Source: Clostridia bacterium
Lineage (GTDB): Bacteria > Bacillota > Clostridia > Oscillospirales > CAG-272
Assembly (NCBI GenBank): GCA_017472305.1
Contig: JAFUQP010000041.1
Coordinates: 1-49,476, forward strand
Length of the DNA stretch: 49,476 bases
Reading direction: 5' to 3'
Each line of letters begins with the position of its first letter. Within the stretch, counting starts at the first letter, position 1. The notes under the pieces were generated by a model. The model made no database searches, was not told the DNA's origin, and was given only the letters and a program-made list of their open reading frames with translations. The position numbers and the translations under genes were made by a program. Of the stretch, positions 4,918 through 28,449 are shown piece by piece.

Positions 4918-5202
4918 TTATAATTCAGGATTTTCCTTGAGTCCATAATACTTGTTAAAGCGCCGTTTATTGAAGATTATGAACTTATGCTCCGCTCCGT
5001 TCTTCATATGGAACGTTGCTATCGGGAAAACAACCCATTTCCACCTAAGCTCTGCGATTTCATTAAGTGGTAGTATAAGATTTCTGTACGCTTTATCTAC
5101 CGTAAGCTTGTTTGTTTTGTAAGTAAGCGAAGATTCATCTAGATATAACGCGCCGCCCAATATTCCGTTATGGCATAAACTACACAAAAACACTTTATTC
5201 AT
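4918..5202 (-). CDS. Small hypothetical protein, PH/GRAM-like beta-rich
   Basis: 94 residues. The start at 5202 follows a GGAGGAAACG-type site. The content is mostly short beta strands with a basic middle (LSYKTNKLTVDKAYR-like, then LILPLNEIAELRWKW) and an ending NKYYGLKE. The pattern of alternating strands followed by a short helix resembles GRAM or bacterial PH domains, but I cannot assign it firmly. A CxxC (CSLC) near the N-terminus could bind metal. It lies between the XRE regulator and the chromate transporter genes on the same strand. Confidence 0.55.
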   Translation of the reverse strand: MNKVFLCSLCHNGILGGALYLDESSLTYKTNKLTVDKAYRNLILPLNEIAELRWKWVVFPIATFHMKNGAEHKFIIFNKRRFNKYYGLKENPEL

Positions 5203-5241
5203 TCCGTTTCCTCCGCAAATTGGATTTTGATTATCAGAACC

Positions 5242-6389: not shown

Positions 6390-6532
6390 GTAAGCCTCCG
6401 TTTCTATCACCCGCGATTCCGTATTGTCTGTGAGTGTATTTCACTCAAGGGCATTTTTTACCTTGATTCAAGGCGCGCGTAACAGGTATGCATCGGCGCG
6501 CATCGCCAAAAACTTGCGTCAGCCCCTTTGCA

Positions 6533-10406: not shown

Positions 10407-11768
10407 TTAAGCCTTTAATGTAACGTCGGCTCTCCTGTATACGCAGCCCTCGGCTTTAACGGTAAGCTCAAGGCTATCCGCGCCCTCGGGGGGATAGATA
10501 GTTGAGGTGAGCGAGTTGCCGTCCTCAAAAATCTCAACCGAAAACTCGTCCATAACGACAGTCAAGGTTACAGCGCTCTTGCCCGAGAAGGGCATACGGC
10601 GAATTCCCTTTAAGGAGTCCTCGTCCTTCTCAACGCCGACGATAGCCTCGCCGGATTTGGAGCGGTCAAGTACCCACTCATTGCCGCAAAGGGTAAGAGA
10701 TGTAAAGCTGTCACCGCCCGAGCGCAGCTTAAGCGTAAGAGCCTCAAGGCTCGTCGCCACTACGGTGATGACACCGACCTTGACCCTATCCTCAAGTCTT
10801 TCTGACACCTCGGTTTTGTATACCTCGGTAGAGTTGACAATCGGCTCCTGGTAAAGTCTGCCGTCCCTTACAGATACTGCCCTCGGCACTGTGAGCATAC
10901 CCGCGAAGCCGTATTTCTCCGACGGTATGTTTCTGTCCCACATATTGAGCCAGCCCATCATTACAGGCTTGCCCGCGAAGGTCTGCGGAGCATATACGTC
11001 GAAGCCGTAGTCAACTATTCCGCGGCTCTCCTCCTTGAAGACACCTCGGGAATAATCGATTTTTCCGATAGCGAATCTGCACGTATGTACGTTGAGGTGA
11101 AGTCCGTTTTCGCTCGGCTGGAACTGCTCGCAGAACAGAAGATAGCCGTCCTCCTCGCTATAGTCGGGACATTCTATCATAATTCCCGCAGAGTCCTTAC
11201 CTAAGAGGTCGCCGACGAACTCCCATTTGAATAAATCAGCCGATTTGTAGAGAAGAATTCTTCCCCTGCCATCTAGCTTCCTCGCCGCAACGATGCACCA
11301 GAACAGCCCGCCGTGACGCCATACCTTGGGGTCGCGGAAATCAGAGGGTGAGTAGCCCTCGGGCAAATCGTCCTCTCCGATGACTATACCGTGCTTTTTG
11401 AAGGTTATGCCGTCAGAGCTTTCCGCAAGGCACTGAAGCTGCCTTATAGAATCGCCGCCCTGATTTTCCGTAAAGCCGGTATACAAGAGCCAGAGCCTTC
11501 CGTCGTATACAATTGCGCTACCGGAAAAGCAGCCGTTCTTATCACCGTCACCGCCGGGTGTAAGTGCGTTGGGAAGATATTTCCAGTTAGTCAAATCCTC
11601 GCTTACAACGTGTCCCCAATGCATAGGGCCCCACTTGGTATCGTAAGGATGGTGCTGGAAGAAGGCGTGATACTGACCGTTATAGTATATAAGACCGTTG
11701 GGGTCGTTTATCCAGCCTACCTCTCCCGTAATATGAAAAGCCGGCGCTTTAGTTTTGGTAATAGCCAT
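10407..11768 (-). CDS. Cytoplasmic GH32 beta-fructosidase
   Basis: 453 residues, no signal peptide. GH32 enzymes remove terminal beta-fructosyl units from sucrose, inulin- or levan-type oligosaccharides with retention. All three catalytic motifs are intact: GWINDPNG with nucleophile Asp22, FRDPKVW with Asp146, and IECPDY with acid/base Glu199. A five-blade propeller (about 10-310) is followed by a C-terminal beta-sandwich (about 320-453). It is the last gene of the operon and should act on imported oligofructosides or sucrose, feeding the fructokinase. No phosphosugar specificity can be read; with an ABC rather than PTS importer, unphosphorylated substrate is more likely. A GC-rich hairpin lies in the 84-base gap upstream. 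Confidence 0.9.
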   Translation of the reverse strand: MAITKTKAPAFHITGEVGWINDPNGLIYYNGQYHAFFQHHPYDTKWGPMHWGHVVSEDLTNWKYLPNALTPGGDGDKNGCFSGSAIVYDGRLWLLYTGFTENQGGDSIRQLQCLAESSDGITFKKHGIVIGEDDLPEGYSPSDFRDPKVWRHGGLFWCIVAARKLDGRGRILLYKSADLFKWEFVGDLLGKDSAGIMIECPDYSEEDGYLLFCEQFQPSENGLHLNVHTCRFAIGKIDYSRGVFKEESRGIVDYGFDVYAPQTFAGKPVMMGWLNMWDRNIPSEKYGFAGMLTVPRAVSVRDGRLYQEPIVNSTEVYKTEVSERLEDRVKVGVITVVATSLEALTLKLRSGGDSFTSLTLCGNEWVLDRSKSGEAIVGVEKDEDSLKGIRRMPFSGKSAVTLTVVMDEFSVEIFEDGNSLTSTIYPPEGADSLELTVKAEGCVYRRADVTLKA

Positions 11769-11852: not shown

Positions 11853-14216
11853 TTACTGAATAGCTTCAATGAAGCCTTCGGGTGCGGACTCAAGGTTTAC
11901 TCTGAAATCGTCCACTACGAAGCAACCGTAATCACCCGCAGAATTATCTACTACTCTGAAGAAGCACTCTGTCTCCTCGCCGGTGTACTGATAGAAGTAA
12001 GCGTTCATTTGGGTATTAACCTTGCCCTCGGCATCGTTATAGAAGGTGGCGATTGCGGTGCCGTCTGCTCTGCAAAGCTGAATGTATACGTCATGGTTCT
12101 GAGCATTACCCGCGCCACCGAATCTGAAGGATACGTAAGAGTCTTTCTTTAAGGTGAATGCGGAACTCTCGAGGTTGCCTTTGCTACCTTCGCAGTTTCT
12201 ACCATCGTTGTGCCAGAATGTGAAAAGATAATTTCCTTGCTTTCTGTCATCATTTTTCGAATAATGCACCGACTCAACCTCTTTGTCCAATACCCAACCA
12301 AGCGTGTTAAATTCGCTCGCCTCGGTTACATTCATCTTCCAGCCGTCCATACCGTATTCAAAACTACCGTTTACAATGCTGTATTTATCCGCTTCCTTAA
12401 CGTCAACGGCATCGATATAGCCATCGGGCTTGCTTGCGTAATAGGTCTTAACGTTATCGAAGGATACACAGCCCCAGCTGTTCGTTGCGTTGTCTACAAC
12501 CTGAATTCTGACTGTTTTGCCAACGTAAGCCGAGAGGTCTGCAACGTAGCTCTTAAGAACCGCGTCCTCTCTTGCCTGCTGACGGAATCTTGCAAGAACC
12601 TCACCCGTGGTAGAATCGATTACCTGAACGTAGCAGAGTTCATTACCGCCGCCGAGCATATAGGTGATATATCCCGAGCCGCCAAGAAGGAACGCAGAGC
12701 TGGTAAGCGTACCTGTATTGCCTTCTCTGCCGTTTCCTGCACCGTGGTCCTCAACACCGCTGTAAAGGTAGTCGCCGTCCTTACCGTACGCTACTCCGCT
12801 GAAGAATGCGTCAGCGCCGGTTACTGCGCCGGGCTCGCCGTTGTTCCACCAGCCTCTGTTGTCGCCGTACTCAAAGCCACCGTTGAATACGTCGTAAACG
12901 GTACCCGAAACTTCGTAGTTAACGGGAGTTGCAGGGTTGAAGCTGTTGCCGTCGGGCTCAATCGGGTAATAGGTGTTGAAGCTATCCGCGAAGAACAGAC
13001 CGTAGCCGCTGTCTGCGTTATCGCTGAGGCGGAAGAATACTTCCCTGCCCATAAACATGGAGAGGTCTGCCTTGTAAGGAACGAGAGTGCAGCCGCTCTT
13101 GGCACCGTCGGTGGTGTCTGCCCAATTGCCGTTGTAGTAGCGGGCAAGAATTTCCTTTGTCTGTGCGTCAACAACGTCAACGTAAACGTAGTTGCCGTCC
13201 TTCATTGCGCCAACCTTGAAGGTTACAAAGCCAGAGCCGCCTACCTTGAAGCTCGAGGAGGTAAGCGTACCTACAGCAGCCTCGTCGCCGCCTTCGTAAG
13301 CGGAGAACATCTTCTCGCCGTCCATACCGAAGAGATAGCCCTCGGCTCTGTCAGCATCTCCTACCCAATAGTGAGTAGCGGAGCTTACGCTACCGATATT
13401 ACCGACGAGAGTCCAGCCCTCAAGGCCGTTCTCGAAGCCGCCGTTCGCAAGAGTGTAGGGAGTGGGGTCAAAGGAAGCCTCGATTATGGGGCTGACAACC
13501 TCGACAACACCCGATACGGTGAAGCTAGGTCCCTTTGTTTCTTCCTCACCGTCAACAATAACGTTCCAGCCAATAAGCTCGTATCCTGCGGAAACGCCAT
13601 TCTTAAGTGCGGGAGTAATTTCAAGGTCCTTTGCGGGAGCGAATGCGTAATCGCTGCCGTTAAGTGTGATTTGGTCGTTATTGGTGAAGGCGATAGAGGA
13701 GTCTGTTACAAGACTGCTTGCGTTTATATTGAGGGCAATCTGTGCCGACTCGCCGTATGCAAGGAGATTGTTGTAAAGAGCTCTGTACTCTTCGCTGATA
13801 CCGCTGTTTGTATAGAGCATTGCGTAGAGGAACTGCGCAACGCTGTACTTGCGTCCCGACTCAACGGGCTCGCCGTTTGCAGAAGAGCTGAAGGTAACCT
13901 CTTCTGCAAGCTCGTAGGCTGCAAAGCCCTCGGTGATTACCCAAGCAAAACCGTCCTTGGTTTCGTAATAGGTAGCGTTTTCGGTGTTGCCGCCTACAGT
14001 GTAGGAAACGACAACGTCGCCGTTTCTGATTTCTTCTTCTGTTGCATTAACCGCAACGCGAATTGCAACCTTTTCGCCGTAAGCTACCGAGATGCCGCCA
14101 AACTCACCCTTGGCGGAGGCACCGTCTGCTGCTACCGAGATTGCCATAACAGAGCCAATGAGAAGTGCGAGAGAAAGTACAAGAACAAGAATTCTTGTAA
14201 GATTAAACTTTTTCAT
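11853..14216 (-). CDS. Secreted protein with three tandem binding-module-like repeats
   Basis: 787 residues from the ATG at 14216, which follows AAGGA; a TTG 18 bases upstream is less likely. Residues 1-30 are a Sec signal peptide without a lipobox Cys. Residues about 35-255 are an unrecognised beta-rich region. Then come three repeats of about 170 residues, each opening with an NGGFE or NGSFE and GW motif, with SSAF or SSSF in the middle, then VVDN or LSDN, and closing with D(S/N)..TYY. The repeats match those of the lipoprotein encoded two genes upstream. The fold looks like a galactose-binding-type beta-sandwich as in CBM families. No catalytic motif and no LPXTG anchor is visible. Role inferred: binding of fructan outside the cell. 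Confidence 0.65.
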   Translation of the reverse strand: MKKFNLTRILVLVLSLALLIGSVMAISVAADGASAKGEFGGISVAYGEKVAIRVAVNATEEEIRNGDVVVSYTVGGNTENATYYETKDGFAWVITEGFAAYELAEEVTFSSSANGEPVESGRKYSVAQFLYAMLYTNSGISEEYRALYNNLLAYGESAQIALNINASSLVTDSSIAFTNNDQITLNGSDYAFAPAKDLEITPALKNGVSAGYELIGWNVIVDGEEETKGPSFTVSGVVEVVSPIIEASFDPTPYTLANGGFENGLEGWTLVGNIGSVSSATHYWVGDADRAEGYLFGMDGEKMFSAYEGGDEAAVGTLTSSSFKVGGSGFVTFKVGAMKDGNYVYVDVVDAQTKEILARYYNGNWADTTDGAKSGCTLVPYKADLSMFMGREVFFRLSDNADSGYGLFFADSFNTYYPIEPDGNSFNPATPVNYEVSGTVYDVFNGGFEYGDNRGWWNNGEPGAVTGADAFFSGVAYGKDGDYLYSGVEDHGAGNGREGNTGTLTSSAFLLGGSGYITYMLGGGNELCYVQVIDSTTGEVLARFRQQAREDAVLKSYVADLSAYVGKTVRIQVVDNATNSWGCVSFDNVKTYYASKPDGYIDAVDVKEADKYSIVNGSFEYGMDGWKMNVTEASEFNTLGWVLDKEVESVHYSKNDDRKQGNYLFTFWHNDGRNCEGSKGNLESSAFTLKKDSYVSFRFGGAGNAQNHDVYIQLCRADGTAIATFYNDAEGKVNTQMNAYFYQYTGEETECFFRVVDNSAGDYGCFVVDDFRVNLESAPEGFIEAIQ

Positions 14217-14254
14217 TTCTTTTTTTCCTTTCAATAATTTTTGTCAAGAATAGT

Positions 14255-14377
14255 TTACCAGCTATCATCTACGTTCTCGTCCGATACGTAGTCGGAGGCA
14301 GTCACAATGTCGTTGCATTCAAACGTGATAATATCCAACGCCGGAGGTATGTAGTGGGTTGTTTTTCCGTTTTTCAT
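14255..14377 (-). CDS. 40-residue peptide, YxxPPxLDIITF-type
   Basis: A short gene between the two repeat-protein genes. ATG at 14377 follows AAGGAGAAGG at ideal spacing; stop at 14255. The peptide begins MKNGKTTHYIPPALDI, continues with ITFECNDIVTAS, and ends in an acidic tail with a final Trp. It has one Cys and no signal peptide. Peptides of this outline (basic start, Y-x-x-P, a hydrophobic-acidic stretch, D-I/V-x-T-x-S, acidic tail) are, as far as I remember, frequent but undescribed in gut Firmicutes. Gaps of 48 and 38 bases to its neighbours place it in the operon. Function unknown: leader peptide of a modified product, chaperone-like partner or regulator are all open. Confidence 0.7.
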   Translation of the reverse strand: MKNGKTTHYIPPALDIITFECNDIVTASDYVSDENVDDSW

Positions 14378-14425
14378 GCCTTCTCCTTTCTTGAAAGATT
14401 TATATAGTCTTGCTAAAGAAATTAC

Positions 14426-16972
14426 TTAAATTTTGCTCTCGATAAGAGTTGCCTCGGGAATATCCTCGGCATTTTCATAATAGGTTATGAAGCTGTCTAC
14501 AGCAAGGCAGCCCCAAGCCTCAGATGCGTTATCTACCACTCTGATGTAAACATTTGTTCCCATAAACGCGCTCAAATCAGCCTTGAAGAGGAACATAGTT
14601 CCCTCGTTTGTGTCTGCGTTATCGTTGTGGTATTTTGCTATAGCCTGGTTTGTAGATGCGTCTACTATCTCGATATAGCAGTTCTCGTTGTAGCCGCCGC
14701 CAAGCTTGAAGGTAATGAAGCCCGTGCCGCCGACTGTGAAGGCGGAGCTTGTAAGAGTACCGTGTGCGGCTTCCATCGAGCCTATAGCGTCCTCAACGCC
14801 CGTGAAGAGATAGTTTCCGTCCTTGTTGTAGAGCTTATTTGCCTGCCCCCAGAAGTGGTCCTGTCCCGATACGTAGCCGATTTCGGTATCGCCGAAGGTC
14901 TTATCGAGCGTCCAGCCTGTAAGGTCGCCGGTCTCAAAGTCGCCGTTGGTTACCTGGTAGGGGTCATTCTCGCCGAGAACAGTATCGGAGGGCTTGATGT
15001 CAACTGCGAGATTTGCCTTCTCGGGTACGCCTGCCGCTTCCTTGTAATAGGTTACGAAGCTGTCTGCGGTGATAAGTCCCCAGTTGCTTACGGAATTGTC
15101 AACTATGCGGATTTTAACGCTCCTGCCCATAAGCGAGGAGAGGTCTGCCTTGTACCAAACCATGTTAGCAAGGTTACTTCCGTTGTTGATTATGCCAATG
15201 CCCTTGTCGCTGAAGAGCCTGTTTGCGAAGCGAAGAAGCTCTTCCCCGCTCTCTGCGTCAATTATGGAGATGTAGCACTCGAGGGGATTTCCGCCGCCGC
15301 CGAGCATATAGGTGATATATCCCGAGCCGCCAACGGTGAACGCGGAGCTGGTAAGAGTACCCTTATGATACTCAAGCACGCCTGCACCCTCGTTAACGAT
15401 ACCCGAGAACAGGTATGCACCCTTCTTGTTGTAGGGAAGATTTTCTGCCCACCAGCCCGATGCGTTGGTTACTACGCCTATCTTGTCGCCCTCAAGCGTC
15501 CAACCGGTAAGGTCGCCCGACTCAAAGCCGCCGTTAGGTATCTGATACTCGCTCTCGGGCATCATATCAGACTCGTACTTAACGAAGAAGGACTCGCTGT
15601 CAATCCACAGGGGCTTTTCCTCCCAATAGGTCTTGACGCTGTCAAGAGTAATACAGCCAAGCTCGTCGCCCGATGCGTTAGCGTCTACTACCTCGATATA
15701 CATCGTTTCGCCAAGATATGCCGAGAAGTCTGCGTAATACTGAACCATATTCAGAAGGCGCATACCGTTCTGAACGTAGGGGAACTGATAGTTCCAGAAC
15801 TTGAAGTTGGAGTATCTTGCAACCTCGGTCGCCTCGCCGTCGCGCACAACCATAAATCTTAAGTAGGTCTTGCTGTTATCCGAGCAGCCGCCGAGCTTGT
15901 AGGTTATGTAGCCCGAGCCGCCAAGCACGAACTCCGAGGAGCGCATAACGCCTGTTGCAGAGGGCATATACTTTCCGTAATGGTAATCTCCGTCGCGCGA
16001 ATAGGGGATATTTTCATTCCACCAAACACTCTCGGTGTTTACACCCTCGTTGGAGAATGCATCACCCTCAACTACAGTCCAGCCTGCAAGCGAGCCAAGC
16101 TCGAAGCCGCCGTTCTTGATTTCATATTCCGACGGAGCCTCTGCCTCGTCCTCATAATCAATTACCTTTGTAAAGAAGTTTCCCTCGGTCTGGGGGTCCT
16201 GGCTGTCGCCGATTCTGATATCGTCCACAGCTATATAGCCGTAGTAGTGGCTCTCGTCGTTATCTACTACTCTGATGTAGACCTCTTTTCCTGCATATTC
16301 CGAAAGGTCTACGTAATACTCGTAGAAGTTATCGGTGTTATATACACCCGAGGCGTATCTGTCGGGCATTACGTATTCCTCGGTATGCTCGTGGAAATAC
16401 TCGTTGGTCTGCATTGCGATAAGCTTATCGTTTTCCTTAAGATAGAAGCCAACGAAGCAAAGCTTCTCCCTTGCCTTCGCGGGAGCGCCCGTACCCTTAC
16501 CTACGGTAAGCGCGCCGCCTGCAAGCTTCAGGCTGACAGTGCCGTCACTCGGAACTGTGAAGCTTGCCGAGCGGATAGCTCCGACTCTTGCGCCGGAATA
16601 CTTGCCGTGGAAGCCCTTACCGGTAAGATACCAGTTACCCGTCTGATTGATTGCCAGAACGTTATTGTTCGCATCGCCCTCAAAGCTAAAGGTCTTTTGT
16701 GACGATACGCAATCGTCGTCAAAGGCATTTCCGTATTCAACAGTCCAGCCCGAAAGGTCTGCCGACTCAAAGCCTCCGTTAACTATTTGCTCGGCGTCGC
16801 CGGAACCGGAGATAGAGCCCGAGCCGCCTGTGCCGCTGCCGGAGCCGCCTGTGCCGCTGCCCGAGCCGCCGCCTGTGCCGTCGTCCTTATTGAACCAGTC
16901 GCAGCCGACAAGCCCGACGCACAAAAGTATTATACATAAAATACTTGAAATTACAATCTTTATTTTACGCAT
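14426..16972 (-). CDS. Lipoprotein with four tandem binding-module-like repeats
   Basis: 848 residues. Lipobox LVGC with Cys24, then a Gly/Ser/Thr linker (to about residue 60) that would hold the protein away from the membrane. Four repeats of about 190-230 residues follow, each with NGGFE or NGDFE plus GW at its start (near 62, 285, 490 and 690), then a SGYITY or TGFITF strand, a K-L-G-G or M-L-G-G turn, VVDN or VDAN, and a closing D(S/D)..TYY or equivalent. Wholly non-catalytic in appearance. Adjacent genes are GH32 enzymes, so it is inferred to hold fructan at the surface near the enzymes and the ABC importer. Sugar-binding residues cannot be named without a structure. Confidence 0.7.
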   Translation of the reverse strand: MRKIKIVISSILCIILLCVGLVGCDWFNKDDGTGGGSGSGTGGSGSGTGGSGSISGSGDAEQIVNGGFESADLSGWTVEYGNAFDDDCVSSQKTFSFEGDANNNVLAINQTGNWYLTGKGFHGKYSGARVGAIRSASFTVPSDGTVSLKLAGGALTVGKGTGAPAKAREKLCFVGFYLKENDKLIAMQTNEYFHEHTEEYVMPDRYASGVYNTDNFYEYYVDLSEYAGKEVYIRVVDNDESHYYGYIAVDDIRIGDSQDPQTEGNFFTKVIDYEDEAEAPSEYEIKNGGFELGSLAGWTVVEGDAFSNEGVNTESVWWNENIPYSRDGDYHYGKYMPSATGVMRSSEFVLGGSGYITYKLGGCSDNSKTYLRFMVVRDGEATEVARYSNFKFWNYQFPYVQNGMRLLNMVQYYADFSAYLGETMYIEVVDANASGDELGCITLDSVKTYWEEKPLWIDSESFFVKYESDMMPESEYQIPNGGFESGDLTGWTLEGDKIGVVTNASGWWAENLPYNKKGAYLFSGIVNEGAGVLEYHKGTLTSSAFTVGGSGYITYMLGGGGNPLECYISIIDAESGEELLRFANRLFSDKGIGIINNGSNLANMVWYKADLSSLMGRSVKIRIVDNSVSNWGLITADSFVTYYKEAAGVPEKANLAVDIKPSDTVLGENDPYQVTNGDFETGDLTGWTLDKTFGDTEIGYVSGQDHFWGQANKLYNKDGNYLFTGVEDAIGSMEAAHGTLTSSAFTVGGTGFITFKLGGGYNENCYIEIVDASTNQAIAKYHNDNADTNEGTMFLFKADLSAFMGTNVYIRVVDNASEAWGCLAVDSFITYYENAEDIPEATLIESKI

Positions 16973-16982: not shown

Positions 16983-19586
16983 TTAGTCGCCGAGGTTACC
17001 CATATTGCCGTAGTAAGGAGGCGTTACGGTGTCGCTGTAAGCGCTGCCCATACGGTAAATGCTAAGCTCGGTGAACTTAATGTTCGCATTGTTGTCAAAG
17101 ACCTTCAGATAGTCGGAGTCGCCGTATCTCGGATATATTCTCGTCGTGAAGCTGATTACTCCGTCAACATAAACCTCGAGCATAGAACGGTCGAGAAGTA
17201 TCGTTATCTCGTACTCGTTTTTGACTTTAGCCCATGTGTGGCTCGGCTGACGGTTAACGTAATCGAGCAGCGAGGACTGAATTCTCTCAACGTAAACGCC
17301 GCGCTCCGAGAATATAATTTCGGTCTTCTCGGTCTTTCCGTCAACGGTGTTCGGATTGTATCTGAGAAGGAAGCCGCCTGCGTATTCGGGGCTTGTGGGG
17401 TCAAGCACGAGCTTTGCCCTGATTTCGAGCATATCGCCGCGAAGCTCGGAAATCTCGCTGTTGACCTCGTCAACCGTCACTCCCTCTCCGCTGTAGGAAT
17501 AGAGCGTTTCCTTTCTAAGAAGCTCAACCTCCTTGATAGGCTCGCGAATAACGTCTGTTCCGTCGTCGGTGAGCCAAAGCTCAAGCGGAATTGCGAAGTT
17601 GTGCGCCCAGCCTGCGGTGTAGTTCTGTGCAGTGCCTGCGTCCTTGCCCTGTGCAATTGCGTAAAGTATGGTTCTGCCGTCCTCGTAGCTCGTCTTGCCG
17701 CTTGCGATATCCTCCTCGGTAAGGAAGCAGAAGCCGTTCTGACCTGTGTAAACGCCTCTTCCGAGGTCAAAGAGTCTCGGCTGGTCGTTATCCGCAATAA
17801 ATCTGCAGGTGTTCTTATCAAACTCGCCTATCCAGTAGTAGCACTCAACGGTGTAGCCGTCAACAGTGTACTGAGGACAGTCGAAGAGAATGTACTTTGT
17901 TTTAGAGCCGTCCTTGGTGCTGATGGGAAGCATTACCACGCACTCCCAGTGCGCGCCCTGCTCGGGATATCTGTTATAATCGCACTGATAGAGATATCCG
18001 CGGTGCTCCCACTCTCTCATATTCTCAGAGGTATAGATAACCGCCGAGCCGCCCGCGCCGGGAATAGAGGTGGAAACCATCATATAATAGGTGCCGTCGT
18101 CATACCAGACGAAGGGGTCGCGGAACTGCTCGCGCTCGCCCTGCGAGTTGTCGTTAGGCTGGGTAATAACCAGCTTATCCTCAACAATCCACTCGGTAAG
18201 ATAGGGGTCATTAGGGTCTGCCGCGTGTGCAAACGCAACGTTCTGTCCGCCGTGGTTAGGATTGCCGTACAAATTCGTTCCTGCCGTGATAGCAAGCCAG
18301 GGCGTGCCGTCAGGGCCTATGCAGGCGCCGCCGGTCCAGATTCCCTCGGGACAGATTCCCGCTGTGGGAACGACCGCGTCCTTGACGTACTTCCAGTGAA
18401 TCATATCCTCGCTGGCTATATGAGCCCAACGAATCTGCGACCAATAGGGTCCTGCGGGATTATGCTGATAGAATACGTGATACATACCCTTGTAGTAGAA
18501 GGGAGAATGAGGCTCATTCATCCATACCGCCGGGGGTATTGCGTGATACTGGGGACGGTAGCGGTCGCCCTCGTAAACAGAGGAATCGAGCGCGATATCC
18601 TTGAAGTCAAGCGCGGGGTGCGCGTCGGTGGAATCGGTATCGCCGTATATTTCGCCTATTGCCTTGGGTGTCAGAGCGGAGGAATAAATACGAACCTCGT
18701 CAAGAAGTCCCGACACCATCTGTCTTTTAATACCGAATTCAATCTGAGGGCTGACGTAGCAGCCTACGCGAAGGGGCTCCTCGGTGTAGATTATGCTCGT
18801 TGCAACAAGCTCGGGTATAATCGCCTCGTAAGCCATCTCGCCGTTATAGAAGAGTCCGATATATCCCGTGTTACCGTCGAAGGTAACCGCAACGTGCGAC
18901 CACTCGTAGAGAGGAAGCGCGTTAATCGGGTCGTAGAAGCCTACAACGAAGTCCTCCTCGGTTTCCTCGTTATGCAGAGCAAGCTGCACTCCCCAAAGTC
19001 CGAGTCTGCCGTAGCCGAGAAGGAAGCCCTCGCACATCTCGATATCTCCCTTGTTGATTATCGAGGTCATACGGGTATGACCTGCCGCGTCGGAGGCGCC
19101 GTCGTAGTGAACTATGTTCTCGAAAACTCTCGGAGCTACCCAGGCAGACATAGTGATTGCCGAGGATGGAGCGTTAAAGTCCCTGTTAACTATATTGTTT
19201 GAGAAGCCGTCCATATACAGGGCGTTGCCCTTTACACCGGGTCTTCTTAAGGGGTCGTTCGGCTCCTTGAAAAGGCTATCGGCATTCTGATCGTTAAATA
19301 CGTAGTTAATAGTATAATCCTTGCCGCTGACCGTCTCCTTCGTAAGGCTGCCTGTCGTTTCGTCAAGAGAATAATTCAGAACGAGCGAGCTCTTACCGTC
19401 CGTGTCGGTGCTACCGCCAGAGCCGCTGCCGCTGCCACCCGTACCGCCGCCCGAGCCATCGCCTGAGCCGCCCGAGCCGCCGTTATCCGTATCCTGATTA
19501 CCCCAGGGCAGCTCAAAGCAGCTTGTCAGCGTGCCCACAAGCATAACCGATACGAGTATTAATGCTATAAGTCTTTTAAGTTTCAT
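16983..19586 (-). CDS. Surface GH32 lipoprotein with LamG-like domain and atypical nucleophile
   Basis: 867 residues. Lipobox LTSC (Cys23) and a Gly/Ser linker to about 65. Residues 68-310 form a LamG/concanavalin-like domain (LVLNYSLDET, ITMSAWVAP, EWSHVAVTFDG, GLLDEVRIYSSAL). The GH32 propeller spans about 340-680, with a beta-sandwich after it. The first catalytic motif reads WMNEPHSP: Glu358 stands where the family has the nucleophile Asp of WMNDPNG. The other two are present: FRDPFVW (Asp490) and HWECV (Glu548). It may be a subfamily with altered mechanism or specificity, or a fructan-binding pseudoenzyme. Gaps to both neighbours are under 11 bases. Confidence 0.85.
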   Translation of the reverse strand: MKLKRLIALILVSVMLVGTLTSCFELPWGNQDTDNGGSGGSGDGSGGGTGGSGSGSGGSTDTDGKSSLVLNYSLDETTGSLTKETVSGKDYTINYVFNDQNADSLFKEPNDPLRRPGVKGNALYMDGFSNNIVNRDFNAPSSAITMSAWVAPRVFENIVHYDGASDAAGHTRMTSIINKGDIEMCEGFLLGYGRLGLWGVQLALHNEETEEDFVVGFYDPINALPLYEWSHVAVTFDGNTGYIGLFYNGEMAYEAIIPELVATSIIYTEEPLRVGCYVSPQIEFGIKRQMVSGLLDEVRIYSSALTPKAIGEIYGDTDSTDAHPALDFKDIALDSSVYEGDRYRPQYHAIPPAVWMNEPHSPFYYKGMYHVFYQHNPAGPYWSQIRWAHIASEDMIHWKYVKDAVVPTAGICPEGIWTGGACIGPDGTPWLAITAGTNLYGNPNHGGQNVAFAHAADPNDPYLTEWIVEDKLVITQPNDNSQGEREQFRDPFVWYDDGTYYMMVSTSIPGAGGSAVIYTSENMREWEHRGYLYQCDYNRYPEQGAHWECVVMLPISTKDGSKTKYILFDCPQYTVDGYTVECYYWIGEFDKNTCRFIADNDQPRLFDLGRGVYTGQNGFCFLTEEDIASGKTSYEDGRTILYAIAQGKDAGTAQNYTAGWAHNFAIPLELWLTDDGTDVIREPIKEVELLRKETLYSYSGEGVTVDEVNSEISELRGDMLEIRAKLVLDPTSPEYAGGFLLRYNPNTVDGKTEKTEIIFSERGVYVERIQSSLLDYVNRQPSHTWAKVKNEYEITILLDRSMLEVYVDGVISFTTRIYPRYGDSDYLKVFDNNANIKFTELSIYRMGSAYSDTVTPPYYGNMGNLGD

Positions 19587-19592
19587 AAAACC

Positions 19593-20510
19593 TCACATTT
19601 TAAGCCCGGACGTACCAAAGCCTTGAACAATGTATTTTTGTGCCGCAACGTAAGTCACGAAGATAGGTATGCTGGTAATTACGAGAGACGCCATAATCTC
19701 GCCCGTCGTAATGCCTTCTATACTCTGGATTGTGGTCAACGCCGTCTGTATCGGAAGCAGGGGCCACGTTCCGTCGCTGGCAGAGGGTAATATCATCGAC
19801 GGCCAGAGATAATCGTTCCAGACACCGATGAAGCAGAACACTGCCACCGTTGCGAGTATGGGCTTGGAGAGCGGCATTATTACCTTGAAGAATACTCCGA
19901 GAGTATTTGCTCCGTCTATTCTTGCCGCCTCCTCATATTCCTTTGGAATGTTCTGGAAGAACTGTGTAAAGAGGAATATGTTGAATATACTGATGGATGC
20001 CGGAAGTATTACGCCTAAGACCGACATCTGTTGCTTCAGTCCGAGCATTATCTTAACTATCGAGTAAAGCGGAATAATTGATGTTTCCACAGGTACGACG
20101 ATTAAGAAAATAATCAGGAAGGACAGAAGCCTTTTGCCGGGAAATACGAGCTTTGCCATAACGTAGCCCGCAAGCCCGTTGACGAGTATATTGATTACTA
20201 TAACTATGCCCGCGTATAAAAAGCTGTTGAGGGCATATTTCCAGATATCGTAACCGAGGAGAACGTTTTTATAGTTTTCAAAAGCAATTCCCAAATGGGC
20301 AAGGTCGGGAAGGAACATATTCAAGGTTCCCACGCTTTCAGCGTAAGCGACCTCGCCCTTCGTGGATGTTGCCAGCATATACAGTATGGGAAGTATGAAT
20401 ATCAGGGATAGAATTATTCCGACAACGTAATAAACTATCTCCTTTACGTTTTTCCTGACCGGCGCTTTATTGGGCCTAAAGTTAGGTAAATCCTGTGTAA
20501 ATTTATCCAT
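19593..20510 (-). CDS. Sugar ABC transporter permease, MalG type
   Basis: 305 residues, inner-membrane subunit of a CUT1-type importer. Six membrane helices start near residue 27. The EAA loop that contacts the ATPase is clear: EYEEAARIDGANTLGVFF, then IMPLSKP. It ends close to GFGTSGLKM, typical of MalG-like proteins (a short C-terminal tail). It starts 1 base after the partner permease stops, so translation is coupled. With the binding protein and the ATPase at the front of the operon it makes a complete importer, inferred to carry fructose oligomers released by the surface GH32 enzymes. Confidence 0.93.
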   Translation of the reverse strand: MDKFTQDLPNFRPNKAPVRKNVKEIVYYVVGIILSLIFILPILYMLATSTKGEVAYAESVGTLNMFLPDLAHLGIAFENYKNVLLGYDIWKYALNSFLYAGIVIVINILVNGLAGYVMAKLVFPGKRLLSFLIIFLIVVPVETSIIPLYSIVKIMLGLKQQMSVLGVILPASISIFNIFLFTQFFQNIPKEYEEAARIDGANTLGVFFKVIMPLSKPILATVAVFCFIGVWNDYLWPSMILPSASDGTWPLLPIQTALTTIQSIEGITTGEIMASLVITSIPIFVTYVAAQKYIVQGFGTSGLKM

Positions 20511-20511: not shown

Positions 20512-21483
20512 TCACTTCTCCCTGAACAGTCTGCGTTGTATAAGCGTTATACCGCCGATAAAGATAGTCATAAGCAGCGCCACAGCCGAGGATTCTCCTA
20601 CAAGGCGCTTGGTATAACCGCTGTTATACATATAATAGGATAGGGTTACCGTATGGCTCATATATCCCGTCATAAGCATTGGCTGAGTCAGAATTCTGCA
20701 AGCACCGATAAATACGGTGATAAGTATGTAAACGAAGGTGGAGCGAAGCCCGACCCAGGTCACGTTCCAGAACTGATGCCAACGGCTTGCGCCGTCGAGG
20801 GACGCCGCCTCGTAAAGGTCCTTTCTGATATTCGAAAGACCCGAAAGGAAAATCAGCATCTGATAGCCACAGCCCTGCCATGCGCTGAGCACTATAATGC
20901 AGGGCATAGCGGTTTCGGGGTCACGAAGCCAGTCGTGCGGCGGAATGCCGAACATACCAAGCAGCGAGTTCAGAAGTCCCCCCTCACCGGGTGCCAGAAT
21001 CTGAAGCCACAAAAACGAGGTAACCGAAAGCGAAATAACAACCGGAGCAAAGAAGCAAACCTTGAAGATTTTACTTCCGAAGCAGGGACGGTTTACAAAG
21101 AGCGCGAGCAAAAGCGCAAGTCCAATCTGAAGCGGAACTACTCCGATAACGAATGTAAGAGTATTCTTTATCGCGTTATAGAGCATACCCTTTTCGGATA
21201 TCTCCTCAATAATCTCGACAAAGTTCTCAAGCTTTACGAAGCTTATATCGTTCGGCTTCAGAAGGTAGTAATCTGTGAACGCATAGCCGAGTGAGTATAA
21301 AATCGGCAATAATACGAACAGGAAGGCAAGCAGCACCGCAGGCAAAAGCATAAGATATGCCGTCACCGTGGATTTAACTCTGTAAACCTCTCTGCGCCTC
21401 TTTGCGGTGGCAAGGTCGTAAACGGCGAAGCCACCGAAGGCGAGTAAAAACAATCCTAAAATTAATATTGACGTATCAATCAT
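20512..21483 (-). CDS. Sugar ABC transporter permease, MalF/UgpA type
   Basis: 323 residues. An extra hydrophobic segment at residues 5-25 precedes the usual six helices that start near 42 (LMLLPAVLLAFLFVLLPILY). EAA loop: LYEAASLDGASRWHQFW, followed by VTWVGLRS in place of the usual ITxPxLxP, so the Pro residues of the loop are changed. It pairs with the MalG-type permease 1 base downstream, and lies 19 bases after the binding-protein gene. Confidence 0.93.
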   Translation of the reverse strand: MIDTSILILGLFLLAFGGFAVYDLATAKRRREVYRVKSTVTAYLMLLPAVLLAFLFVLLPILYSLGYAFTDYYLLKPNDISFVKLENFVEIIEEISEKGMLYNAIKNTLTFVIGVVPLQIGLALLLALFVNRPCFGSKIFKVCFFAPVVISLSVTSFLWLQILAPGEGGLLNSLLGMFGIPPHDWLRDPETAMPCIIVLSAWQGCGYQMLIFLSGLSNIRKDLYEAASLDGASRWHQFWNVTWVGLRSTFVYILITVFIGACRILTQPMLMTGYMSHTVTLSYYMYNSGYTKRLVGESSAVALLMTIFIGGITLIQRRLFREK

Positions 21484-21502: not shown

Positions 21503-22849
21503 TCAGCGGTCTTTTACTTCGTCAATTGCATCCTGAAGGGTGTTCTTCGCTGAGTTGAGAAGGTCGGATACGTTTCCTTTGCCAAGACCGAAGATAACCT
21601 GGTTGAAGGTTGTGGAGAAGGTGGGGTACGCAACGGTTACGGGACGCTCCTTGCCGCTTATCTCAAGCTGCTTGAGAAGGGTGTACTCGGGAGAGCCTGC
21701 CTCGTAGTTCTTTACTACGTCCTTACGGGCGGGAATCATACCGGTTGCGTTAGTGATAGCCTCGGAGCTCTCTGGGGAGGTCATCCACTTAAGAAGCTCG
21801 AGAGCTGCGGTTTTGTCGGTGTGGTGGTTGTTGGTGATTGCGTAGGACCAGCTGCCTGTTGCGCTTGCTGCTACTACGTCCTTGGGATAAGGAAGAAGTC
21901 CCCAGTCGTCACGCGAAGCGAAATTCTCTCTGTACTTGTTGTCAAGGTCGGGAATAGTCCAGCCCGAGGAGAGATACATTCCCACCTTACCGGTGAAGAA
22001 ATCGGTAGCACCGATTGCGTAAGAGGTATATTCCGCGGAAATGAGGTCTTTTATAAACTGGAAGCCCTTCGCGGTTGCCGCAGAGTTGTAATAGCCGCCG
22101 GCAGTAAGGCCGTCAGCAGAAACGAAGCTGCCGCCCGCCGCGTAAATGAAGGGATAGAGAAGGTAGGGCGCGGTCTCGTCCTTGGTAGCGTCGATACGCA
22201 TATCAACCGCGGTGACGCCGTGCGACTTAAGCCTTGCGCAAACGGCCTTGAACTCTTCGAAGGTCCAGGGGTTCTCAGCAGTGTAGGCCGATACGTCAAT
22301 GCCTGCGTCACGGAAGATTTTCTTGTTATAGAAGAAGCCTGCGCTAGACTCCTGAATGGGAAGACCGTAGAGCTTGCCCTCGTACATGTTGAGCGAGAAG
22401 AACTTGTTCTGCTCCTCCTCGGAAATAAGGTCGGTTATGTCGTAGAGAAGCTCGGAGTTCGCGTATGCCGCCGTGTTGGGCGCGTCGAAGGTGATTATGT
22501 CTGCAAGAGTACCCTCAAGCTGGTTATTCATAAGCTCGGTCTCATAGCCCGATGCACCTGCGGAGCGAGCCTTGAATATAGCCTGAGCCTTGATTTTCTG
22601 ATCCTTATAGGCAGTGTTGAAGGCGTTGATTCTCTTCTGATATGCCTGACCCTCGGTCGAGGACTTATCAACGTGGAACATAATCTTTACTATGGTATTA
22701 CCCTCGGAATCGGTGGATGACGAGCCGCCGTCACCGCCATTTCCGCCGCCGTCACCGCCATTTCCGCCGCCGCCGAAGCAGGATACCATACCAAGTAACA
22801 TCGTGAACACAAGCATAATTAAGGTGATTGAAGCAAAAAGCCTTTTCAT
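21503..22849 (-). CDS. Extracellular sugar-binding lipoprotein of the ABC importer
   Basis: 448 residues, family 1 solute-binding protein. Lipobox MVSC (Cys24) followed by a Gly/Asp linker made from an 18-base DNA repeat (around 22730-22775). Mature part: KIMFHVDKSSTEGQAYQKRI, DIITFDAPNTAAYANSELL, LYGLPIQESSAGFFYNKKIF, and GKVGMYLSSGWTIPDL, all landmarks of this family. It captures the sugar outside the membrane and delivers it to the two permeases encoded next. Specificity is inferred from the surrounding fructan genes. The 36-base gap upstream separates it from the LacI gene. Confidence 0.93.
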   Translation of the reverse strand: MKRLFASITLIMLVFTMLLGMVSCFGGGGNGGDGGGNGGDGGSSSTDSEGNTIVKIMFHVDKSSTEGQAYQKRINAFNTAYKDQKIKAQAIFKARSAGASGYETELMNNQLEGTLADIITFDAPNTAAYANSELLYDITDLISEEEQNKFFSLNMYEGKLYGLPIQESSAGFFYNKKIFRDAGIDVSAYTAENPWTFEEFKAVCARLKSHGVTAVDMRIDATKDETAPYLLYPFIYAAGGSFVSADGLTAGGYYNSAATAKGFQFIKDLISAEYTSYAIGATDFFTGKVGMYLSSGWTIPDLDNKYRENFASRDDWGLLPYPKDVVAASATGSWSYAITNNHHTDKTAALELLKWMTSPESSEAITNATGMIPARKDVVKNYEAGSPEYTLLKQLEISGKERPVTVAYPTFSTTFNQVIFGLGKGNVSDLLNSAKNTLQDAIDEVKDR

Positions 22850-22885: not shown

Positions 22886-23854
22886 TTATTTTGTGGTTGC
22901 GCCAAGTACAAATTTTGTCTTAAGAACGGTTCTAGTGCAGGTTTCTTCGCTGTGAATTTTCTTAATGAGCAGTCTGACAACCTGCCTTGCCATCTCCTCA
23001 ATAGGCTGCTCAACGCTTGTTATGTTGCTTATTCCCCACTGCTTGAAGATGCCGTCGTAGGAAACTATCTGCAGGTCCTCGGGAACTCTTTTTCCAAGCT
23101 CCAGTGCAGCCTCGTAAAAGACCTGCGATATAGTATAGCCCGAAACGAAAACTCCGTCAACGTCCGCATACTTTTCCAAAAAGTCTGCAACAACAACGGC
23201 CTCCTCGCCGTGCTGAATGACCTCGTTTACAAGCCTAGGCGGCATACCGTATTCCGCCATAACGTCAAGGTATGCACGCTCTCTTTCGAGGACCTCGGAG
23301 GCGACCAGGGGCTTTGAGCCTATGAAGCCAACCCTCTCTGCGCCTCGCTCAATCATATATCTTATTGCCTTTTTCGTTGCGTCGTAGTTGTCGCTTGTGA
23401 CGTAGGGTATATCCTTTCCAAACGATCTGTCAATAGAAACGATAGGACAGTCCTGAAGCTCATCCTCCTCGTGCATATAGTGAGTAACGAAAACAGCTCC
23501 GTCTACCTCTCTGTGCTTGATTTTCGTAATTATCTCGGCTTCCTTATCAACCTTTTGCTGTGAGGAAACCAAAAGCACCGAATATCCGAACCTGCACGCC
23601 TCGTCCTCGACGTAATATGCAAGCTTTGCAAAGAAGGGGTGGTTTATGACGGGTACCAAAAGAGCAATAATGCGCGTTTCGTTCTTTCTTAACCTGAAGG
23701 CCATATTGTTACGCGAATAGTTAAGAGCCTTCATTGCCTCAAGAACCTTTTCACGGGTCTTTTTTCCTACCGCCTTTTCGTTGTTTATTACTCTTGAAAC
23801 CGTACCGACGCCTACTCCGGCGTATTTCGCTACGTCTTTAATTGTTGTATCCAA
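22886..23854 (-). CDS. LacI-family regulator of the fructan operon
   Basis: 322 residues from a TTG at 23854, chosen because AGAGGT lies 6 bases before it and because the protein then starts like other LacI members (DTTIKDVAKYAGVGVGTVSRVINN); an ATG 15 bases upstream contains that site. Residues 1-55 bind DNA, with a hinge helix REKVLEAMKALNYSRN; the remainder is a periplasmic-binding-protein-like sensor (IIALLVPVINHPFFAKL, DGVFVSGY, SVEQPIEEMARQVV). Likely target: the two TGGAAA-NN-TTTCCA palindromes around the operon promoter at 31338-31406. Likely inducer: fructose or a small fructoside. Its place in the middle of the operon makes it autoregulated. Confidence 0.9.
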   Translation of the reverse strand: MDTTIKDVAKYAGVGVGTVSRVINNEKAVGKKTREKVLEAMKALNYSRNNMAFRLRKNETRIIALLVPVINHPFFAKLAYYVEDEACRFGYSVLLVSSQQKVDKEAEIITKIKHREVDGAVFVTHYMHEEDELQDCPIVSIDRSFGKDIPYVTSDNYDATKKAIRYMIERGAERVGFIGSKPLVASEVLERERAYLDVMAEYGMPPRLVNEVIQHGEEAVVVADFLEKYADVDGVFVSGYTISQVFYEAALELGKRVPEDLQIVSYDGIFKQWGISNITSVEQPIEEMARQVVRLLIKKIHSEETCTRTVLKTKFVLGATTK

Positions 23855-23913
23855 ATATCTACCTCTCATAATAGCGCCTCAGCCGTTCAAACGGCAATCG
23901 GCAAGAACATGGG

Positions 23914-26900
23914 TTAATCCTCAAGCGTTACGACAACGGTTTTGCTGCCGTTTATAACGATTTCGTTACGCTCCTGTGTAAGAAGAGATGCGCTTAAGGT
24001 CAGCATATAATTCTCTACGGTGTACTGCGACTCGGTAAGCTCCGTACCGTTAAGCCTTACCGATTCTATCTCAACGTTTCCAAGATAGATAACCGCGTTG
24101 CAGCCCTTTTGAAGTGTCATATCCTTAAGCACCGTTTCGACTGTAGCGGTGACGTTTACGGTGAACTCGTACGCGCCGGCAGCTCCGTATGCCTTGAAGG
24201 TGTATTCTCCTACAGGCAAAAGCTCAAAGTACGCAGCGTCGATGATAAGCTTTCTTCCGTCGTTCTTATAGAACGCTCCGTCCACCTTGGTATTGGAAAG
24301 GGTCTTGTTGTAGAGCGAGGTTACTACCTGCGCGGAATCCCCTGTAACGGTCAGACTGCCTGTGCCGCCGTAGGAATAACGGTCGTTGAAGTTGACCACC
24401 GACTTGAAGGTCGCCTTACCCGAATAAACGTTAAGTCCGAAGAGACCCTCAGTGGGCTCATCAGCGTCAAGAACTGTATTGATTGCAAGACGGCCGTTGA
24501 TATAAGCCTTGACCGAGGTGCCGCTTGCCTCTACTCTCAAAACTACGTTAGAGGTGTTCACGTCGGGAGCCGCCGCTCTGCCGATTTCACCGCGAGGCGA
24601 CCACATCTTAACTATCTTCTCGTTGTTGTCGTAGTTAAAGATTATATAGTCGCTCATATCCTCGCTTGCTCTGAAGATAACCGCAGCCGCAATCGCCTCA
24701 AGCGAGAAGGCTACCGAGCAGTTGAAGTCGGATACGCTCTGGCTCGAAAGGATATATCCGTCGCCCGCGGGAGTTTCGGCAATTATTTCAGAGCCCTTGG
24801 CAATCCAGCTGCCCGAAATAATTCCGTCGGAGTCGAAGGGAACGTCGGTATCGGGTGCGCTCTCGTAAACTGTAACCTCAACCACTCTCTTCTGGTTGCC
24901 GCAGCTGACAAGAATAGCAGCCTTGCCTACTCCGATTGCCCTTACGTTAACGCCTCCGGTGACCCTCTCAAGCGAAACGGTATCCTTTCCGCTGATAAGC
25001 TCCCAGGAAATCTCCTCGCCCGAGGTGGAATATGCGGTAACCTCTCCTTTCTTTGTAAGAGAGGTATCAAGCTCAACCGAGCTATCGCTGACGTAGAGAA
25101 CCGTTTCTCCGTCCACGCTCTCACCGGTGCGCCATACCGAGGCTATCTCGTTCAGCACGAGGCTCTCGACAGTTACCTCACCGCTTGACGCGAATTCCGC
25201 CTTCACCGAGTAAGGAGAAGCGAGCGTCAAGACGTAGAAGGGAATCTTGAAGTCGTCGCAGAATACCTCAACGCCGCCGTTGTCCGAGAGAATATAGAAG
25301 CTCTGCGAGCCAAAGCTTCTCGGGCCGGAGGTAAATCTGAAGTGATAATCCTTAATGGAAAGTCCCGCGTCTGAGGTAAATCTGCGGTCTACGAAGTAGC
25401 CCTCGTCCTTGTTCCAGCCGATTTCGGTATACTCGTCGGCAGAAACGTTGATTTTTATGGAAATCGCCTCATTGCTTGGGTTGTCGATATCGAGAAGCAT
25501 CTCGAATATATGCGTATTTACGTCTGCAAGAATATTCTCGCTTGCAGCGCCTACGGTCTTATTCTGAACGTTAAGAAGGTTTTCCTTCGTAAAGACCGTG
25601 CTGTCCTTTACGATAGGAGTCTGTGTTAAAATATATCCGTCGCCCTCGGCAGCCAAGCCCCATACAACGGGGATTGTCATACCGCTTCCGTTCCAGACCT
25701 TTCTTGCGTTTGCGTATATTCCGCTATCGGTATCCGCGGGCACTCCTGCAAACCAGCTTATAGACACGGTCTTGCCGAAATAGTCGCTCTCGGTATCTCT
25801 TATACTGAAGGTCTGCGCGGCGTAGGAGTCGGGGCCGAAGTCCATTTTCTGAATGTCACCCTGGTCTATCGCTCCGCCGTCCTTATCGGTAAATACGATG
25901 CTGTTGCCGTCGTAATTCATTTTACCGACTATGTACTCTCTTGCGGTAAGGGTAAGGACGGTGTAAATCTCTCCGTCGTCAGCGGTAAGCGTAACTACGT
26001 CGGGACACTCGGGAACGTTAGCGCTGAACTGACCTGCATAGGACCAATCCCAAAGGTTTGTCGATTTGAGGAACCAGACCTTGTTTGCCTGCTGACCTGT
26101 AAGAGCCATACCCCACGCGGTGGTCTTGCCGTCAACTATCTCTACGGGGAATATCTTCGGGTCGCGGCAGGCGATCTTGTCGGTAACGCCGTCAGCGCCG
26201 GTTGCAACGTCCTGCGGAATAAGCTTGCGCTTCGTCCAGGTCATACCGCCGTCGTCCGAGGACATAATCATCTGGTCCTGTCTGCCGCCGTCACGGGTAT
26301 AGAAGGCGATAATTCCGTTGCCTCCTCCATTCGGGAACCAGTTAAATCCGTCTATTGTTGCGCTGTCGCCGAGTCTGTACTCGTAAGCCGAGCCCGACCA
26401 CATATAGCCGTTTGCACGGTCGCCCCAATCCGCATCGGGGAAAAGACAGATGGGAAGAAGCTCCCAGTGCGCGAGGTCACGGCTTCTTGCGTGTCCCCAA
26501 TACATATCGCCCCAATAATTGTTGTAGGGGTGATGCTGATAATACAAATGATAATATCCGTCGTAATAAACCAAGCCGTTAGGGTCGTTGTTCCAGTGCG
26601 CGTACTGCGAGAAGTGGTACTGGTTACGGTAAAGCTCGGTATAGTAGGAATAGTCGCTCTTTCCGTAATAGATATCCGAGAATTTTACCTTTGCGTTGTA
26701 GCAGTTAAATCCGATATTACCGCCCTCGTAGGTTACGTCCTCGGGAAGTCGCGAGAGGGAGTTAAGCTCAATCTCTCTGTCAATGCCGAACCTGCGGATA
26801 TTGTCTGCATAGAACTCTGCGTAAACGCCGTCGTCCTCGGGAGTAATTACAACCTTAAGCTGTACCTTGTCAATTCCCGCGACCTTCTCGCCGACAAGAC

Positions 26901-27462
26901 GCCTTTCGCTGTCGGTCATCTTATCGTTACCGATGAAGTAATCGGTAATAAGCTCAACCGCAGAGGTTTTTCCCTCTCCGTCTACCGTAAAGTAAAGAAG
27001 CTTTACAAGGTTTGCCGCTCTGTCTACGTTAAATACCCAGTAGTGCGAGCCGTCCTCTGCACCGAAGGCAAGCGCCGCCGCCACGCCTCTCTCAAAGGAC
27101 GCTGTCGCTGTGTATACGAAGCTCTCGCTTTTTCCGTAGCTGATTTCCGAGAGCGTAAAGCTGTCGGTGTCGCTATCCATATTTACGTCGGGAGCTACCG
27201 TTTCGTAGTCGGTAACGTCTGTGAAGGTTACTTCATCTCCGTCCCCGTCGGATACCGCAACGTCAGACGAGCCGCCCGAGGGGGCTTTGCCGGTATTACC
27301 TGCGCCGCCGGCTGCCGTGCCGCCGAGTACAGTATCGGTGCCGCCCGTAACGCTTCCCTTATCCTCGCCGCCTGCCGTGTCAGCTACAGAGCCGCAGGAC
27401 ACGAACAGGTAGCACACAAGGATAATTAATGCTACAATTGAATATTTCAAACGGTTTTTCAT
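23914..27462 (-). CDS. Large multi-domain GH32 lipoprotein (levanase/inulinase-like)
   Basis: 1182 residues. Lipobox FVSC (Cys23) and a Gly/Thr linker. Domains in order: a CBM66-like concanavalin fold (about 90-270); GH32 propeller (about 280-620) with intact HWNNDPNG (Asp293), CRDPKIF (Asp434) and PECPDVV (Glu485); GH32 C-terminal sandwich to about 780; a Big-2-like Ig domain (about 800-880, VTAYSTSGEEISWELISG); a second CBM66/DUF1080-like domain (about 900-1035, IIFNYDNNEK, VEASGTSVKAYINGRL); and a C-terminal X2-like Ig domain. CBM66 in Bacillus SacC binds terminal fructose of levan, which supports an exo-acting surface enzyme. It sits between the fructokinase and the LacI gene. Confidence 0.9.
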   Translation of the reverse strand: MKNRLKYSIVALIILVCYLFVSCGSVADTAGGEDKGSVTGGTDTVLGGTAAGGAGNTGKAPSGGSSDVAVSDGDGDEVTFTDVTDYETVAPDVNMDSDTDSFTLSEISYGKSESFVYTATASFERGVAAALAFGAEDGSHYWVFNVDRAANLVKLLYFTVDGEGKTSAVELITDYFIGNDKMTDSERRLVGEKVAGIDKVQLKVVITPEDDGVYAEFYADNIRRFGIDREIELNSLSRLPEDVTYEGGNIGFNCYNAKVKFSDIYYGKSDYSYYTELYRNQYHFSQYAHWNNDPNGLVYYDGYYHLYYQHHPYNNYWGDMYWGHARSRDLAHWELLPICLFPDADWGDRANGYMWSGSAYEYRLGDSATIDGFNWFPNGGGNGIIAFYTRDGGRQDQMIMSSDDGGMTWTKRKLIPQDVATGADGVTDKIACRDPKIFPVEIVDGKTTAWGMALTGQQANKVWFLKSTNLWDWSYAGQFSANVPECPDVVTLTADDGEIYTVLTLTAREYIVGKMNYDGNSIVFTDKDGGAIDQGDIQKMDFGPDSYAAQTFSIRDTESDYFGKTVSISWFAGVPADTDSGIYANARKVWNGSGMTIPVVWGLAAEGDGYILTQTPIVKDSTVFTKENLLNVQNKTVGAASENILADVNTHIFEMLLDIDNPSNEAISIKINVSADEYTEIGWNKDEGYFVDRRFTSDAGLSIKDYHFRFTSGPRSFGSQSFYILSDNGGVEVFCDDFKIPFYVLTLASPYSVKAEFASSGEVTVESLVLNEIASVWRTGESVDGETVLYVSDSSVELDTSLTKKGEVTAYSTSGEEISWELISGKDTVSLERVTGGVNVRAIGVGKAAILVSCGNQKRVVEVTVYESAPDTDVPFDSDGIISGSWIAKGSEIIAETPAGDGYILSSQSVSDFNCSVAFSLEAIAAAVIFRASEDMSDYIIFNYDNNEKIVKMWSPRGEIGRAAAPDVNTSNVVLRVEASGTSVKAYINGRLAINTVLDADEPTEGLFGLNVYSGKATFKSVVNFNDRYSYGGTGSLTVTGDSAQVVTSLYNKTLSNTKVDGAFYKNDGRKLIIDAAYFELLPVGEYTFKAYGAAGAYEFTVNVTATVETVLKDMTLQKGCNAVIYLGNVEIESVRLNGTELTESQYTVENYMLTLSASLLTQERNEIVINGSKTVVVTLED

Positions 27463-28381: not shown

Positions 28382-28449
28382 ATTTTCTCCTTTGTCGCAT
28401 AAGCGACAGAACTTATTCAGTATATTGTGCAATCAAATGGCTAGGGCAA

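Follow-up and report, generated by a model that had tools for sequence, protein, structure and literature searches.

What do seven copies of one repeat do in two neighbouring proteins, A and B, that have no catalytic domain of their own, and is this repeat a new module? The question is raised by a candidate fructan locus in the window, i.e. the whole 49,476-nucleotide stretch of DNA analysed here, which is an entire contig of a 2.03-Mb Clostridia genome, 86% complete. The minus strand encodes, in the order of transcription, a PfkB kinase, a third GH32 protein, a LacI regulator, an ABC binding protein, two permeases, a LamG-GH32 protein, B, A, and a GH32 protein without an evident signal peptide, the last of which is probably intracellular (Table 1). 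A first-pass annotation of this DNA placed A and B between two GH32 genes, and both flanking frames indeed match GH32 Pfam models. The end of the LamG-GH32 gene and the start of B are 10 bases apart. In the third GH32 protein, residues 893-1022 match PF06439, which we take to be a family related to CBM66, below its cut-off (E 0.00045, 20.8 of 26.8 bits), and residues 1131-1171 match Shr-like_HID slightly over its cut-off (24.7 vs 22.3 bits).

Table 1. Features of the window, with the repeats listed under the protein that carries them.
Feature	Position	Strand	Basis
GH32 protein without evident signal peptide	10407..11768	-	Glyco_hydro_32N; start of ORF
Protein A, 793 aa, secreted, three repeats	11853..14234	-	ORF, repeats
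Repeat A3, divergent	11874..12383	-	
Repeat A2	12420..12896	-	
Repeat A1	12948..13457	-	
Protein B, 848 aa, lipoprotein, Gly/Ser-rich linker and four tandem CBM38-type repeats	14426..16972	-	ORF, lipobox, repeats
Repeat B4, canonical	14459..14959	-	
Repeat B3, canonical	15026..15547	-	
Repeat B2, grouping at a 0.6 distance cut with N-terminal repeats of Paenibacillaceae GH32 proteins	15605..16126	-	
Repeat B1, divergent position-1 type	16187..16792	-	
LamG-GH32 lipoprotein, partner enzyme	16983..19586	-	Pfam Laminin_G_3, Glyco_hydro_32N, 32C; lipobox-like LTSC in ORF start
ABC permease	19593..20510	-	BPD_transp_1
ABC permease	20512..21483	-	BPD_transp_1
ABC solute-binding protein, lipoprotein-like start	21503..22849	-	SBP_bac_8 + SBP_bac_1
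LacI-type regulator	22886..23869	-	LacI + Peripla_BP_3
Third GH32 protein, 1182 aa, lipoprotein-like start	23914..27462	-	Glyco_hydro_32N + 32C
PfkB-family sugar kinase	27476..28432	-	PfkB
MalK-like ATPase	29767-31299		

The repeat occurs four times in B and three times in A, as had been annotated. All 21 pairwise alignments of the copies, over stretches of 159-204 residues, outscore every shuffle (100 shuffles per pair), the weakest pair (A3-B1) scoring 98 against a shuffle maximum of 55, which rules out a chance repeat. A search of the whole genome with profiles built from, or including, these same repeats returned A1-A3 and B1-B4 and no other match. The opening NG[GSD]FE...GW is present in all seven copies. 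The closing VxDN...DS..TYY is looser than first described: VxDN is exact in A2, A3, B1, and B4 and reads LSDN in A1, VVDAN in B2, and IVDN in B3, and D[SN]..TY[YW] is kept in five copies and lost in B1 and A3. Many conserved residues are missing from these two copies, which may fail to bind. B is a lipoprotein, as proposed, with the lipobox LVGC at residues 21-24. A begins with a signal-peptide-like stretch, in agreement with its description as a secreted protein, and a pattern search found no lipobox in it.

Curated libraries give these proteins no family. The reported lack of catalytic motifs is borne out, no catalytic Pfam or NCBIfam family reaching its cut-off on A or B; all matches of the two proteins in these libraries lie below cut-off, and none above it was found for the N-terminal region of A (about residues 30-255). 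At E 0.01, 75 repeats scanned singly gave LTD in two and HpiC1-like in one with Pfam, and NTTRR-F1 in 18, choice_anch_J in four, and five further models in one each with NCBIfam. NTTRR-F1 was rejected: it is below cut-off and covers only the start in B and B3. CBM_4_9 (PF02018) scores 14.3 and 16.3 bits, under its cut-off of 25.9, and matches none of the 75 single repeats at E 0.01; no kinship with it was found by hhalign, a weak test using 11 of 25 sequences. PDB searches returned no confident full-length relative (best E 0.0012 across 33 profile positions).

The repeat is most likely a CBM38-type fructan-binding module. The claim of a new module is not supported, since the same repeat lies inside GH32 enzymes elsewhere and coincides with published CBM38 intervals; for these same two reasons, the putative fructan-binding role is well supported by homology. 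In a protein of Defluviitalea raffinosedens, CBM38 has been assigned to residues 44-189, 221-367, 409-527, and 1313-1448, and GH32 to 808-1121, in the accessible part of the source (PMC7355431). A Clostridia protein, L061, possesses repeats at residues 36-207, 214-385, 405-547, and 1309-1469, and a GH32 domain at 808-1122. All four of those published intervals fall wholly within the L061 repeats and GH32 starts at residue 808 in both proteins, L061 being a positional stand-in for the published one, so that the CBM38 assignment rests on positions and not on alignment with the founder sequence. Among the 29 fused proteins that carry three or more upstream repeats, aligned on their GH32 start and drawn from a sample that includes the best 80 of 195 matches, 26 cover each of the four intervals to at least 90%; the others are L043, L075, and L050, the latter with 89.8% on one interval.

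The founding CBM38 module (AAG47946, residues 32-389), from the CFTase of Paenibacillus macerans, binds levan and inulin and forms two β-sandwiches according to AlphaFold2, as stated in excerpts of PMC10076258. A P. nuruki protein of 1321 residues (L052) harbors repeats at 69-240 and 255-391, followed by LamG and GH32, hence a tandem pair N-terminal to GH32 as in CBM38. Furthermore, B3 shares 49% identity with repeat 1 of L043, which is fused to GH32, and excerpts of two papers report CBM38 together with GH32 in a Bacteroides uniformis locus. As far as the P. macerans module is described there, the likeness extends to repeat length, tandem N-terminal copies, one copy after GH32, intervals relative to GH32, and a non-catalytic nature, whereas the window repeats are carried by enzyme-free proteins, in arrays of four and three, with B lipid-anchored. 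CBM66 of Bacillus subtilis SacC is likewise a fructan-binding module tied to GH32, but it belongs to a separate CBM family and is set apart here by its description, itself consulted as an extract.

What looks new is the arrangement, with the repeats on a separate array protein beside a LamG-GH32 enzyme devoid of them. A sample including the best 80 of 195 matches yields 31 distinct pairs of this kind, chiefly from gut Clostridia, in which a LamG-GH32 without repeats is followed by a stand-alone array of three to five repeats. Four repeats are found in 25 arrays, three in 3, and five in 3, three arrays being cut by a contig end. The set includes L044 and L048; L045, a duplicate contig of L090, was dropped, and so was L068, a Paenibacillus array frame that ends a 9.4-kb contig, is probably a truncated fused protein, and is labelled split in the tree (see below). 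The median gap between enzyme and array is 9 bases (range -119 to 373), with 29 of the 31 gaps between -10 and 25. A lipobox pattern is present in 27 enzymes and 26 arrays, and in both partners of 23 pairs; three of the five lipobox-negative arrays (L079, L085, and L107) have Ala-Cys at the end of the signal stretch and seem to miss the pattern narrowly. In L048 (genome G033), the LamG-GH32 frame around 3851-6400 is in two overlapping pieces, indicating a frameshift or an assembly error. Of the 69 genomes of the genus, the same 8 contain both LamG-GH32 (E 1e-30 or better) and the repeat, and neither was found in the other 61; these genomes being related and many of them incomplete, no probability is given for this co-occurrence. 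No description of stand-alone CBM38 arrays was found in the sections consulted of the open-licence PMC literature, which is weak evidence of absence.

A quick, unrooted LamG-GH32 tree of 89 rows covers all 33 proteins labelled split, 28 of 33 fused, and 28 of 30 array-free ones. It gathers 31 split rows and L080 in one clade (SH-aLRT 100), L045 and L090 within it being the same contig. The array of L080 is further off from its enzyme, and L078 (Izimaplasma) is a true enzyme-array pair outside this clade. Late gene fission from a Paenibacillus fused enzyme is not supported by this tree, which, being unrooted, gives no direction. In a tree of the repeats from 23 complete four-repeat arrays, those at position 1 group in one clade, as do those at position 2 and those at position 3 (SH-aLRT 99, 99, and 97, respectively); the array is thus old and fixed as a unit, and a recent tandem expansion in B is ruled out. 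Position 4 is not cleanly one clade, with four label changes, and the repeat tree warns of long branches that meet. Mean pairwise identities at positions 1 to 4 are 65, 75, 66, and 56%. Trp33 (B3 numbering) is kept in 0, 23, 19, and 22 of the 23 arrays at these positions, respectively, and residue 156 is invariant at each position (Tyr, Leu, Trp, and Trp, in all 23 arrays); position 1 has lost Tyr39 together with Trp33 in every array.

Counting the window genome, the repeat is borne by 5 of 59 genomes of relatives, 4 of 398 of the phylum, 4 of 295 of the order, and 8 of 69 of the genus, and it is found in 23 of 148 genomes of the family of G124, taken as Paenibacillaceae. A scan of named genomes, which is not a census, provided 79 loci from the best 80 of 195 confirmed matches, belonging to Paenibacillus, Cohnella, Neobacillus, Halalkalibacter, gut Clostridia, and a few other Bacillota or Mollicutes-like MAGs. 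With these (L049-L127), L041-L043, and the window, 83 loci are available, in a sample that favours links to GH32 through its queries, taken in part from enzyme-fused repeats, and through its restriction to the best 80 matches. In this sample, 32 loci have repeats, LamG, and GH32 in one protein, 29 have an adjacent enzyme-array pair, 4 have only a LamG-less fusion of repeat and GH32, and 18 are arranged otherwise, several of the latter with an array next to a LamG-less GH32. Of the 83, 79 contain a GH32 frame, L112 among them; L111, L119 (a 6-kb contig), L122, and L126 have none in the stretch covered, and could point to another ligand. Altogether, 33 proteins of the sample including the best 80 of 195 matches combine repeat, LamG, and GH32 in a single polypeptide. 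The fused proteins are mostly from Bacillales and typically consist of two to five repeats, LamG, GH32, and one repeat, the layout of Paenibacillaceae and some other Bacillota enzymes being typically R-R-R-LamG-GH32-R. S-layer domains occur in two of the three Pfam-scanned fused proteins (L042 and L043). Among 707 matches in plasmid records, none covers more than 80% of the query. On a plasmid of Catenovulum adriaticum (NZ_CP109966.1, 265726-269118), a GH32 protein aligns in two segments, together 69% of the query, with residues 369-1318 of a Paenibacillus fused protein; this match possibly reaches into the C-terminal repeat and hints at the type outside Bacillota.

Judging from sequence, B is probably a stand-alone, membrane-anchored CBM38-type array that serves the LamG-GH32 enzyme on fructan, with A as a secreted array and the importer and intracellular enzymes finishing the task. 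What we infer here is that the repeats bind a ligand, that B keeps substrate available to an enzyme on another polypeptide, and that the products take the route described next. At the cell surface, B would bind inulin- or levan-type fructan and keep it close to the LamG-GH32 lipoprotein, a repeat-free enzyme that would cut the chain so held. The ABC binding protein would then capture fructo-oligosaccharides, the permeases would carry them into the cell, where the intracellular GH32 and PfkB kinase would complete the breakdown. Since A has no lipid anchor, it may coat the substrate or stay with the cell wall.

The repeat proteins had been likened to SusD, which stands only in the loose sense of a glycan-binding partner: no SusD family turns up in Pfam for A or B, even at E values up to 10, and the locus encodes an ABC importer that comes with a binding protein. 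No SusC-like match was found among the Pfam-scanned neighbours. B displays the gene features of surface glycan-binding proteins, i.e. a lipobox, a LamG-GH32 gene 10 bases upstream, and ABC importer genes, and by analogy it most likely acts like SusE/F or BT1761, a closer analogue than SusD. In the levan system of Bacteroides thetaiotaomicron, the GH32 endo-levanase BT1760 and the non-catalytic binding protein BT1761 are separate lipoproteins encoded together, the role proposed for BT1761 being to bring fructan to the enzyme, according to excerpts of PMC7618045 and PMC6560043. In contrast to the tandem CBM38-type repeats and ABC importer of the window, BT1761 is described there as having two Ig-like domains and a globular levan-binding domain, with SusCD at the outer membrane. 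Sas20 of Ruminococcus bromii is also a Gram-positive gut binding protein, with two binding domains, beside separate enzymes, but the accessible text of PMC9112005 relates it to starch and amylosome complexes, with other domains. It is conceivable, though we hold it as doubtful, that gut Clostridia possess a Gram-positive fructan "utilisome", built on an old and obligate pairing of enzyme and array. The CBM38-type modules would then make up a separate protein with four specialised positions, of which 2-4 would hold the fructan chain and the divergent position 1 would serve as docking site for the LamG-GH32 or the importer, like BT1760/BT1761 on SusCD.

Other readings of the repeats have been considered. 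They might bind another glycan or a cell-wall polymer, or mainly tether their proteins to the wall, the GH32 neighbourhood being incidental. The absence of a GH32 frame from 4 of the 83 loci (best 80 of 195 matches included), the lack of a membrane anchor in A, and the S-layer anchors already present in L042 and L043 would suit this idea; it is nevertheless unlikely in view of the fusion of repeats to GH32, the GH32 frames of the remaining loci of that sample, and the joint occurrence of enzyme and repeat in the same eight genomes of the genus. The separate, old lineages of the four positions, and the loss of Trp33 and Tyr39 from position 1 of all 23 arrays, which would suit a docking domain, could also be taken as signs of a scaffold that joins enzyme and importer by protein contacts, with no sugar binding. 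Such a scaffold is quite improbable, as Trp33 is kept in 64 of 69 copies at positions 2-4 and the activity reported for CBM38, in the excerpts at hand, is binding of levan and inulin.

We give very little credence to a truly new CBM family resembling CBM38 in placement only. It would agree with the lack of any Pfam or NCBIfam model at cut-off on the window proteins, with the lack of a confident full-length PDB match, and with a comparison to the CBM38 founder made by position, not by sequence; however, the published CBM38 intervals sit on the repeats, and the identity of B3 to a GH32-fused repeat (L043, see above) also argues against it.

Fructans are leading prebiotics, and to our knowledge their holding at the surface of Gram-positive gut bacteria is poorly described. 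By term search, "CBM38" is absent from the main text of a 2026 review of gut CBMs. With B as a CBM38-type array serving the LamG-GH32 enzyme, the pair would be a system in which the binding modules of an enzyme reside on a second protein, and the enzyme-fused homologues offer a ready comparison. In addition, a profile of the repeat would allow many proteins with no Pfam domain to be annotated.

The nucleophile of GH32 enzymes is usually an Asp, in a WMNDP motif. In LamG-GH32 proteins this motif reads WMNE[PA], with Glu in all 65 without repeats and in 32 of 33 fused ones (sample including the best 80 of 195 matches), and the window enzyme has WMNEPH, with Glu where the nucleophile usually lies. 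GH32 frames without LamG or repeat comprise 60 with Asp and 28 in which the motif is not shown, and the six with repeats and no LamG comprise four with Asp, one with Glu, and one with no motif. The replacement of Asp by Glu raises a possible effect on mechanism or product, e.g., cyclisation.
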